Part shown: positions 23,993 through 27,302 of the stretch, in pieces
Layout: each line of letters begins with the position of its first letter
Position numbering within the stretch: the first letter of the stretch is position 1
From: Pirellulales bacterium
Lineage (GTDB): Bacteria > Planctomycetota > Planctomycetia > Pirellulales > PALSA-1355
Length of the DNA: 64,000 nt
Reading direction: 5' to 3'
NCBI GenBank assembly: GCA_022844125.1
Contig: JALHMI010000001.1
Location: 186,001-250,000 of the forward strand
The notes under the pieces: model-generated
Told to the model about the DNA's origin: nothing
The model's input: the letters and a program-made list of their open reading frames with translations, nothing else
Databases searched by the model: none
Position numbers and translations under genes: made by a program

Positions 23993-25072
23993 ATGCCGTC
24001 CAGCCGTATGCCCCGTGCCCTCGTAGCCTTGGGAACCAATCTCGGAGATCGCCACGCGATGCTCGCGCGGGCGATCGAGCGCATCACGGAGGTGGCGACC
24101 GGAGATGTCAGCTGTAGCAAATTCTACGAAACTGCGCCTGCCGGCGGTCCAGCTGGTCAGGACGCGTTTCTAAACGCTGCCGTGGTGTTCGAGACGCGGC
24201 TCAGTCCGCACGAACTTCACGCGGCCCTGCGTGCAATCGAAGTCGAACTCGGCCGGGTTCGCGGCGAGCGCTGGGGGGCCAGACTCATCGACTTGGACAT
24301 CCAGCTCTATAACGATGCGCCGAGGACGGCGGGCGACGATGCGCCGGGGACGCCGCTCGTCATCGCCGATGCCGAGTTGCAGATCCCGCATCCGCGGATG
24401 GCCTTTCGCCGCTTTGTGCTGCAACCGGCCGCCGAAGTAGCGGCCGAGATGGTTCATCCCATCTTCGGCCGCACCGTGGAACAGTTGCTGGATCACTTGA
24501 ATCACTCGCCACCTTTGGTGGCGATTCTCGGGGGAACTGCCGCCGAGCGCAACGCCTTGGCACAGGCTGTCGCCACGCAAACGGGCGCTGCATGCATCCT
24601 CGATCCGCAGGCCGATCGCCCGCTGTCGGGGGACGACTCGTCTGGCCGCTCTCCGGCCAGGCCACTACAATCCCTGGACGACACCGCCCGACTGCTGTCT
24701 GAGCATGATTGGAACTCGCCAGAGTGGGTCGTGAGCGCAATAAGCCTCGAGCAGGTGATGGCCGAAGTCGCTGCAGTTTTGGACGAGGAGTTTTCGAACG
24801 AGACGGACCCCCTCGATTTCCGAATCGCGGACTATGAATCGCTCAATGCATCGCTTGAGCCGCTCACGAGCCCCCGGCTGCTCGTGGTGCTGGACGATTG
24901 GAGTGAACTGGTGGCCTTGCACTTGGGTGATCGTCCCCGGCCAGGCACATCGCTGCAGCAAATAGCGCTGTACGCGGCAGCGACCTCGGAAACGCCGGTG
25001 CTGTGTGCCGGCCAAAATGACCTGCTGACGCAAATCGCTGAAATTACCGCGGCCATGGTCGCAATGCAGTAG
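23993..25072 (+). CDS. folK: HPPK (2-amino-4-hydroxy-6-hydroxymethyldihydropteridine pyrophosphokinase) with extra C-terminal domain
   Basis: 359 residues. The first 165 are a complete FolK, which transfers pyrophosphate from ATP to the pterin in folate synthesis: LVALGTNLGDR, GPAGQDAFLNAA, ERWGARLIDLDIQLY and LQIPHPRM. The remaining 190 residues are extra. They open with VAILGGTAAERNALAQAVA (173-191), which looks like a P-loop NMP or deoxynucleoside kinase start whose GxxxxGKT has become GGTAAERN. The middle of this domain (residues about 230-300) is Asp/Glu-rich. The start could also be the ATG at 24008. It leads a folK-panC-lgt run. Confidence 0.9.
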   Translation: MPSSRMPRALVALGTNLGDRHAMLARAIERITEVATGDVSCSKFYETAPAGGPAGQDAFLNAAVVFETRLSPHELHAALRAIEVELGRVRGERWGARLIDLDIQLYNDAPRTAGDDAPGTPLVIADAELQIPHPRMAFRRFVLQPAAEVAAEMVHPIFGRTVEQLLDHLNHSPPLVAILGGTAAERNALAQAVATQTGAACILDPQADRPLSGDDSSGRSPARPLQSLDDTARLLSEHDWNSPEWVVSAISLEQVMAEVAAVLDEEFSNETDPLDFRIADYESLNASLEPLTSPRLLVVLDDWSELVALHLGDRPRPGTSLQQIALYAAATSETPVLCAGQNDLLTQIAEITAAMVAMQ

Positions 25073-25090: not shown

Positions 25091-26008
25091 ATGCCGACTT
25101 CAGGTTCGCACACTTCTCCACGCATCGTTCACGAAATCGCCGAACTGAAGGCCGCGGTGCGGGCTGCGCGCGCCGCGGGACGGCAAATCGGCGTCGTCCC
25201 CACGATGGGCGCCCTGCACGAAGGGCATTTGAGCCTCGTGGATGCGGCGCGTCAGGATTGCGACTTCATCGTCGCCACGATCTTCGTGAACCCTACCCAG
25301 TTCGGCCCGGGGGAAGACTTCAGCAAGTATCCGCGCACGCTCGCCAGAGACGTCGAACTTCTCTCACCGCGAGGCGTCGACCTGGTATTCGCGCCCGAGG
25401 CGTCGGCCATCTATGGCCCCGAGCACGTCACGAAGGTGATTCTCGACGGGCCTGCGCTGTCGCTCGAAGGGGACGCGCGCCCCACGCACTTCGCAGGCGT
25501 GGCCACGATCGTGCTCAAGCTGTTCAACCTCGTCCAGCCGGACCGGGCCTACTTCGGTCGCAAGGACTTTCAGCAGGCGATGGTCGTCCAGCGAATGGTG
25601 GCCGATCTCGACGTGCCGGTCGAGGTGATCGTGTGCCCCACGGTGCGCGAGCCCGACGGCCTGGCCATGAGTTCGCGCAACGTGTATCTCTCGCCCGAGG
25701 AACGCCGGCGGGCACTGTCGCTCTCGCAGTCATTGTCGCTGGCCAAGCAGTTGCTCGCGCGCGGAGAACTTAACGTCGCCACGATTCAGCAGCGGATGCG
25801 CGAGGTGCTCGCTGCCGCCGATGCCGAGATCGACTACGTCGCCATCTGCAGCTCGACGACACTTGCGCCGCTCACGCACATTGATGGCCCCGCCGTGGCC
25901 CTGATCGCCGCGCGGATCGGCAAGACCCGGCTGATCGACAACGAACTGTTGAACGAGGGAACACCCGACGGTCCAGGGAAAGGCCCCGCAGGTCCAAGGA
26001 AAGGATAG
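25091..26008 (+). CDS. panC: Pantothenate synthetase
   Basis: 305 residues, normal for the family plus a short Gly/Pro tail. It condenses pantoate and beta-alanine with ATP, the last step of pantothenate synthesis. Diagnostic motifs: VVPTMGALHEGHLSLV with the adenylate-binding histidines, IFVNPTQFGPGEDFSKYPR, FGRKDFQQ, and EPDGLAMSSRNVYL. It starts 18 bases after folK and ends 7 bases before lgt, so all three are probably co-transcribed. Confidence 0.97.
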   Translation: MPTSGSHTSPRIVHEIAELKAAVRAARAAGRQIGVVPTMGALHEGHLSLVDAARQDCDFIVATIFVNPTQFGPGEDFSKYPRTLARDVELLSPRGVDLVFAPEASAIYGPEHVTKVILDGPALSLEGDARPTHFAGVATIVLKLFNLVQPDRAYFGRKDFQQAMVVQRMVADLDVPVEVIVCPTVREPDGLAMSSRNVYLSPEERRRALSLSQSLSLAKQLLARGELNVATIQQRMREVLAAADAEIDYVAICSSTTLAPLTHIDGPAVALIAARIGKTRLIDNELLNEGTPDGPGKGPAGPRKG

Positions 26009-26015
26009 TCGCCCG

Positions 26016-27302
26016 ATGTATCAGACACTCTTCACCATTCCCAAGCAGATCGCCGGGATCGATGTGTTCGGCTTCGGCTGGGTGCTCGGCATCTGGGCGG
26101 TCGCCGCGGCGATCATCATGGCGATCAGCTATCGCCGGCACGGCTGGAGCGGTGAAACGCGCAGCCAGCTTGGCGCGGTGTTGATCGTGGGCCTGGCCAT
26201 CGCGTTTCTGCTCCCGAACCTGATGGACGAGCGACTCGGTGGGCTGGCGATTCGCGGCTACGGCGCGCTATTGCTCGTGGCCGTCGCCAGCGGCGTCGGC
26301 CTGACGATGTATCGCGCCGAGCGCGTGGGAGTGAATCCCGAAATCTGCCTGTCGCTGGGAACCTGGTTTTTCATCTGGGGAATCATCGGCGCGCGGGCGT
26401 TCTATGTGATCGAGTACTGGGATCGCTTCCAAAAGGCGACGCTCTCCGAAACGGTGTTCGCGATCCTCAACCTCACGCAGGGTGGGCTCGTCGTCTACGG
26501 CTCGCTGATCGCCGGCGGTGTGGCGCTGATCGTGTTCGTGCGCAAGTACCACCTGCCGGGCCTGGCGCTGGCCGACCTGATTGCGCCGGGCGTCGTGCTG
26601 GGGGTCGGCCTGGGACGACTCGGTTGTTTCCTGAACGGCTGCTGCTATGGCGGGCTGAGCGATTTGCCCTGGGCCGTGCAGTTTCCCCCCGAGGCGCCGG
26701 CCTACATCGACCAGGTCGAGCACGGCCGGTTGTCTCTGCATGGCATCCGCTTCGACGGCGAAGGGGTCGCGCCGCCGGTGATCTCCGCAGTGGAGCCCGG
26801 CTCGCAGGCCGCGCAGGCTGGCCTGGAAAAAGGGGACCTGGTCGTCGCGGTCGGCAAGCAAGAGGTGCGCACCGTGGAGCAGGCCCAACGACTGCTGTTC
26901 GGCAGCTTTGGCGAAGGCGCGCCCATCAGCATTACGGTGGCCGACGATTCCGCGCCGCACGCCTGGAAGATTGCCGGCCCGGCGCCGCGCAGTCTGCCGG
27001 TGCATCCCACGCAGCTTTACAGCCTGATCGACGCGCTGCTCTTATGCGGGCTGCTGCTGGCGTTCGAACCCTACAAGCGCCGCGACGGAGAACTGGCGGC
27101 GCTGGTGCTGACGCTGCATCCGATCTCGCGGTTTCTGCTGGAAATCATTCGCGTTGACGAATCGGCCGTTCTCAACACCGGCATGAGCATCTCGCAGAAC
27201 ATCAGCATTGGCATCTTCCTGATCGGCGTCGGCCTGTGGATCTACCTACTCGGCTTCAAATCCCCCGGCATCGCCTGGCAGCGGCGCCTCGCCGTGGCCT
27301 AG
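26016..27302 (+). CDS. lgt: Prolipoprotein diacylglyceryl transferase with inserted PDZ domain
   Basis: 428 residues, against about 270-300 for a normal Lgt. Lgt moves diacylglycerol from phosphatidylglycerol to the lipobox cysteine. The membrane core is intact: YGALLLVAVASG, WGIIGARAFYVIEYW, GGLVVYGSLIAGG, the signature GLGRLGCFLNGCCYGG (about 198-213), and later HPTQLYSLIDALLLCGLL and RFLLEIIRVDE. Between the signature and HPTQLY sit about 85 extra residues (about 235-320). They read as a PDZ domain: PPVISAVEPGSQAAQAGLEKGDLVVAVGKQEV. The insertion would lie in a loop outside the membrane and might recruit substrates or partners. Confidence 0.93.
   Translation: MYQTLFTIPKQIAGIDVFGFGWVLGIWAVAAAIIMAISYRRHGWSGETRSQLGAVLIVGLAIAFLLPNLMDERLGGLAIRGYGALLLVAVASGVGLTMYRAERVGVNPEICLSLGTWFFIWGIIGARAFYVIEYWDRFQKATLSETVFAILNLTQGGLVVYGSLIAGGVALIVFVRKYHLPGLALADLIAPGVVLGVGLGRLGCFLNGCCYGGLSDLPWAVQFPPEAPAYIDQVEHGRLSLHGIRFDGEGVAPPVISAVEPGSQAAQAGLEKGDLVVAVGKQEVRTVEQAQRLLFGSFGEGAPISITVADDSAPHAWKIAGPAPRSLPVHPTQLYSLIDALLLCGLLLAFEPYKRRDGELAALVLTLHPISRFLLEIIRVDESAVLNTGMSISQNISIGIFLIGVGLWIYLLGFKSPGIAWQRRLAVA

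Follow-up and report, generated by a model that had tools for sequence, protein, structure and literature searches.

Lgt, the prolipoprotein diacylglyceryl transferase, is usually about 280 residues long and opens a pathway found in nearly all bacteria; what makes it accept a given protein substrate, and how it takes that substrate in, is, to our knowledge, still unsettled. In a Pirellulales-type planctomycete we examined an Lgt-family protein of 428 residues within which a PDZ domain had been predicted, and the question that its locus raises is what such a domain does inside a lipid transferase. The window (the whole stretch of DNA that was analysed, 64,000 nucleotides) holds the gene and its upstream neighbour at the following positions:

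25091 to 26008, forward strand: panC (pantoate-beta-alanine ligase; Pfam E=5.5e-106), 7 bases upstream of lgt.
26016 to 27302, forward strand: lgt, 428-residue prolipoprotein diacylglyceryl transferase-family protein with a PDZ insert, the frame open from the ATG to the stop.

The window also encodes, at 23993-25072, a folK-type HPPK protein of 359 residues in which the HPPK domain covers residues 11-150 only, and the C-terminal part of this protein (about 200 residues) had no match in Pfam.

The original prediction had read the frame 26016-27302 as Lgt, and this reading was borne out. The LGT family matched residues 74-410 (E=4.6e-51, 173.9 bits against a gathering score of 24.9; Pfam), and an AlphaFold2 model computed with 114 homologues as input (pLDDT 94.6, pTM 0.89, no low-confidence linker flanking the insert) was superposed on E. 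coli Lgt 5azb over 248 residues with Z 20.8 and rmsd 2.8 (VIA-align). The motifs of the family were located as follows:

26481 to 26501, forward strand (residues 156-162): GGLVVYG, aligned with the H103 GGL motif of E. coli, Y161 standing where H103 does.
26613 to 26651, forward strand (residues 200-212): Lgt signature motif GRLGCFLNGCCYG, in which R201, C204 and G212 correspond to E. coli R143, N146 and G154.
27003 to 27020, forward strand (residues 330-335): HPTQLY, where the head ends and the next transmembrane (TM) helix begins.
27129 to 27152, forward strand (residues 372-379): RFLLEIIR, in which R372, E376 and R379 correspond to E. coli R239, E243 and R246.

According to the alignment to E. 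coli Lgt, the essential residues Y26, R143, G154 and R239 were kept as Y82, R201, G212 and R372. Across 114 sequences, R201, C204, C209, C210, R372 and R379 were invariant, while Y82, G212 and E376 were nearly so. H103 and N146 were not kept, their positions being occupied by Y161 and C204, and cysteines were found at the positions of both N146 and E151. Replacement of H103 by Y, W or F and the change N146C have been reported in other, distant Lgts (PMC13251419); since both positions vary within the family, Y161 and C204 do not bar the protein from it.

These two cysteines, together with a score below the TIGR00544 equivalog cut-off (101.2 against 118.9; NCBIfam) and a second LGT-family protein in the same genome, could be taken to mean that the window encodes a paralogous transferase that uses another acceptor and is not an Lgt by activity. 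We consider this very unlikely. The insert interrupts the TIGR00544 profile, and a PDZ-less planctomycete Lgt that is likewise located beside panC (locus L058) scored above the same cut-off (131.7). R143, R239, Y26 and G154 are all retained, N146C and H103Y have precedents in the distant Lgts mentioned above, an ordinary LspA gene is present in the genome, and the second copy, a divergent one, is encoded in overlap with a TrsS/Tes-like radical SAM gene. Taken together, the kept key residues, the linkage to panC, the presence of LspA and the divergence of the second copy led us to regard the protein as this planctomycete's housekeeping Lgt, which on sequence grounds it probably is. The second copy itself (268 residues, GRLGCFVAGCCYG, insert-free) is encoded at another locus of the same genome (L005:1417-3619, G000 contig C17), where its gene overlaps the 3' end of the radical SAM gene; the best scores of the latter, all below cut-off, were to TrsS and to the tetraether lipid synthase Tes.

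At most of 80 planctomycete loci panC was found upstream of lgt, whether or not the latter encoded a PDZ domain, so PDZ-bearing and PDZ-less lgt genes are orthologues at one locus. This shared panC-lgt synteny rules out a horizontally acquired paralogue, and the identical architecture in many independent genomes rules out a frame artefact or a chimeric assembly.

The PDZ domain and the surrounding head region comprise:

26640 to 26729, forward strand (residues 209-238): start of the head, a conserved FP..SPPY..Q...G segment and a helix (228-235), also found in PDZ-less relatives.
26730 to 26978, forward strand (residues 239-321): PDZ domain, placed by the Pfam PDZ_6 match and by the PDZ fold of the AlphaFold2 model.
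26733 to 26753, forward strand (residues 240-246): SLHGIRF, a hydrophobic-G-hydrophobic motif resembling a carboxylate-binding loop, with G243.
26874 to 26903, forward strand (residues 287-296): PDZ helix alpha-B, the second wall of the ligand groove, placed by DSSP of the models and by alignment.

A PDZ domain of about 85 residues had been expected between the signature motif and HPTQLY, and it was recovered there by two approaches. PDZ_6 matched residues 255-297 (E=2.3e-11, 43.7 bits against a cut-off of 27), the Pfam PDZ family was also above its cut-off (E=4.5e-6, 27.4 against 23.2), and PDZ_2 matched as well. In the predicted structure, residues 241-321 (about 80 residues) adopt a PDZ fold, with Z scores of 10-11.3 to the PDZ domains of HtrA, DegQ, DegS, MucD and CtpA (VIA-align). 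Both hallmarks of the PDZ groove, the SLHGIRF loop and helix alpha-B, are present. The spacing from the signature motif to HPTQLY was 117 residues, compared with 31-45 in PDZ-less planctomycete Lgts. The insert had also been placed outside the membrane, and the site agrees with this: the periplasmic head of E. coli Lgt, E151-P197, lies between TM4 and TM5 (PMC4728403) and corresponds in the alignment to residues 209-331, so that the PDZ domain lies inside the periplasmic head.

The best match to this PDZ domain in its own genome was the PDZ of a multihaem cytochrome c-type protein of 1484 residues (L265:3394-7845, G000 contig C13; PDZ_6 E=1.2e-8). The cytochrome gene immediately follows one for a cytochrome b-like protein, and its product is a respiratory complex-like protein with a PDZ domain.

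The PDZ domain accounts for only about 80 of the 428 residues, and residues 1-72 are non-canonical as well. They contain a second unusual feature of about 60 extra residues, absent from the original prediction, namely a tandem copy of the unit formed by TM1 and the start of TM2:

26052 to 26201, forward strand (residues 13-62): N-terminal copy of the unit, found by HHalign at an offset of 62 residues.
26238 to 26387, forward strand (residues 75-124): canonical copy, in which Y82-G83 correspond to E. coli Y26-G27 by alignment and conserved columns.

The two segments were aligned without gaps over 50 columns (HHalign probability 96.2%, E 2.4e-9), while the controls, consisting of other TM segments, five column-shuffled profiles and one reversed profile, reached at most 6.4%. 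Self-identity was 22% at offset 62 and at most 12% at every other tested offset, and the strand-helix-helix unit appears twice in the AlphaFold2 model. The tandem duplication of the TM1 unit thus gives the window Lgt two extra TM helices. An extended N-terminus was also found in the PDZ-less Lgts of family f8 and of Planctomycetales (signature motif near residue 204), and the extension is therefore independent of the PDZ domain. Extended N-termini of Lgt occur across Planctomycetia. We regard the anatomy, orthology and conservation of the PDZ-bearing Lgt, as described here and below, as close to certain.

We then considered how widely the PDZ domain occurs. An HMM built on the trimmed inserts (shuffled inserts gave no match below E=0.08) detected the domain in 138 of the 240 distinct Lgt ORFs collected. 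Within the host order, Pirellulales, it was present in 128 of the 142 examined genomes and in 19 of the 20 families, in a genome set that favours good matches and leaves 51 more genomes (about half of them f8) outside it. Close relatives carry the insert in frame, including three other genomes of the host family. The exception is family f8, with the domain in 0 of 11 examined genomes. Outside the order, a PDZ domain was found at the corresponding site in Gemmatales-type relatives (L024, L025, L038, L042, L048 and L075). The Lgts of f8, Bythopirellula, Isosphaerales and Planctomycetales have none. In Phycisphaerae (L049, L065 and other loci), the position of the PDZ domain in the Lgt head is taken by unrelated inserts, 68-139 residues in length. 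Two of these are long and helical or coiled-coil-like, and the HMM gave no match to the long Phycisphaerae inserts. The head loop of Lgt is an insertion hotspot in Planctomycetota.

In trees of the core alone and of the core plus the N-terminus, the host order formed one supported clade. The PDZ-less f8, L236 and Bythopirellula (L015) were nested within PDZ-bearing groups (SH-aLRT 95-97 in the tree of core plus N-terminus), which implies at least three losses of the domain. The inheritance of the PDZ domain in the host order was vertical; its gain took place either once, before the split of Gemmatales and Pirellulales, or twice. At about 2.3-5.3 Mb, the genomes of family f8 are small next to those of most other families in the host order, and the loss of the domain in f8 may be tied to streamlining. 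The losses, with the Lgt core retained each time, also rule out the PDZ domain as an essential part of catalysis.

Such a record of repeated loss at an insertion hotspot would suit a domain that is a mere passenger in a loop tolerant of insertions. The substitution rates speak against this, as does the long retention in 19 families. Among the 27 close pairs for which a ratio was defined, the dN/dS of the PDZ domain was mostly 0.1-0.4, with one value of 0.62; this is about two to three times the value of the Lgt core (about 0.1) and well below 1. These ratios indicate purifying selection on the domain and disfavour pure neutrality, a reading that we consider very improbable.

Conservation was uneven across the domain. 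G243 of the ligand loop was invariant in 98 of 98 aligned PDZ-bearing sequences and the packing positions were conserved. Helix alpha-B, by contrast, was variable on its exposed face, which holds the groove positions. In a supported, Pirellulaceae-like sub-clade of family f15, which includes strain CA13, helix alpha-B was lost or shortened (L014, L217, L221-L223, L226, L229, L230, L238, L246, L247, L249 and L253), and HPTQLY has often become RAAQLI or FAAQIL. The eroded domains keep the motif resembling a carboxylate-binding loop, and the model of L230 (pLDDT 93.3) retains the PDZ strands with a similarity to PDZ domains of Z about 5, compared with about 11 in the window Lgt. This is domain decay in progress. 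The loss of helix alpha-B in one clade means that classical peptide binding is not universal among these domains and, combined with the repeated losses, indicates that the domain is accessory and tunable, not catalytic.

The same pattern is what one would expect if the PDZ domain only stabilised or enlarged a small planctomycete head, as a lid without a ligand: conservation is higher at the packing positions than on the groove face, one clade persists with a remnant that lacks helix alpha-B, and Phycisphaerae have filled the same site with unrelated, in part helical, inserts. A stabiliser, however, need not be a PDZ domain, nor would it have to preserve the motif of the ligand loop across almost every family, and PDZ-less lineages manage with a short head loop. 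We consider the lid reading unlikely.

The reading that we favour, at a probability of roughly 45%, is that the PDZ domain would act as a periplasmic module that gates or steers incoming preprolipoproteins. The domain would sit above the opening of the lipid-transfer cavity on the periplasmic side, where it could engage or sterically screen either the stretch behind the lipobox of a preprolipoprotein or the C-terminus of a lipoprotein, so that the signal peptide would reach the cavity in a favourable state. Steering could be achieved by weak binding or by screening of substrate bulk; the domain would tune efficiency or substrate range, and the chemistry would not need it. The head and arms of Lgt have been reported to determine substrate specificity (mBio 2026, PMC13251419), and the same authors hypothesise that the linker of the preprolipoprotein contacts the head. 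Since the head is reported to set specificity and the linker is proposed to touch it, the PDZ domain would most simply act on the incoming protein. Substrate choice, one of the two roles suggested in the original prediction, is plausible because head swaps alter the function of E. coli Lgt (PMC13251419), and a precedent for screening exists in RseP, whose periplasmic loop carries PDZ domains that screen substrates tethered to the membrane (PMC7728848). We counted in favour of gating the position inside the head, the wide retention, the low dN/dS, the invariant G243 and the accessory nature of the losses; against it we counted the variable groove positions of helix alpha-B, the clade without this helix, and the existence of Lgt without a PDZ domain in f8, Bythopirellula, Isosphaerales and Planctomycetales. 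The fuller picture, in which the head domain of a PDZ-gated Pirellulales Lgt selects the preprolipoproteins to be lipidated, or sets the order of their lipidation, while a tandem duplication of the first membrane hairpin has remodelled the core, is possible, though we hold it as doubtful.

The other suggested role was coupling to a protease or an assembly factor. PDZ domains commonly bind C-termini, and the invariant loop glycine and the likeness to HtrA-type PDZs, which bind C-terminal peptides, would suit a docking hook that couples Lgt to a partner such as a translocon component, a periplasmic chaperone or protease, or another maturation enzyme. Set against this are the variable groove positions and the clade without helix alpha-B, and no partner gene beyond panC, a protease or assembly-factor gene included, was conserved beside lgt at the 80 planctomycete loci. 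LspA is ordinary and its C-terminus would be cytoplasmic by known topology, for which reason we judged it unlikely as a ligand. Moreover, several lineages do without the domain and one clade has it in a partly eroded form, which argues against a single obligatory partner. We rate docking as rather unlikely; it and the ligand-free lid are the live rivals to gating.

In the open-access literature that was searched, we found no description of an Lgt (diacylglyceryl transferase) with this architecture, in Planctomycetes or elsewhere, and neither 'PDZ' nor 'Planctomyc' occurs in the main text of the 2026 survey of Lgt (PMC13251419). A PDZ domain in the Lgt head of a planctomycete order thus appears to be undescribed. 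The protein shows that Lgt tolerates the insertion of a whole domain in its head and two added TM helices, and the PDZ-bearing Lgts of the order, together with relatives that have lost the domain or retain a remnant, form a natural deletion series for the question of substrate choice. If the gating reading is true, the entry step to lipoprotein maturation would be a regulated one.

Among known systems, the proteases HtrA/DegP/DegQ/DegS and CtpA share with the window protein the bacterial PDZ fold (Z about 10-11 over residues 241-321) and the ligand-loop motif; the window protein, in contrast, is no protease, and its PDZ domain lies within the head of a lipid transferase. RseP and the site-2 proteases offer a works-like analogy: they too are multi-span membrane enzymes with membrane-tethered substrates, and a periplasmic loop between their TM helices holds PDZ sequence that serves as a size-exclusion filter. 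The window Lgt differs from them in being a non-protease (their hallmark HExxH metalloprotease motif is absent from its translation) with an unrelated membrane fold and one PDZ domain, and filtering is proposed here by analogy. With E. coli Lgt (PF01790; PDB 5azb/5azc) it shares the fold, the signature motif and the equivalents of R143, R239, Y26 and G154, and it differs in the PDZ domain within the head, the two added N-terminal TM helices, the cysteines at the N146 and E151 positions and the tyrosine at H103. Finally, variation in the head, reported to affect specificity, is common to the window Lgt and to the diverse heads and arms of other Lgts (mBio 2026, PMC13251419), but the window Lgt has gained a whole known interaction domain.
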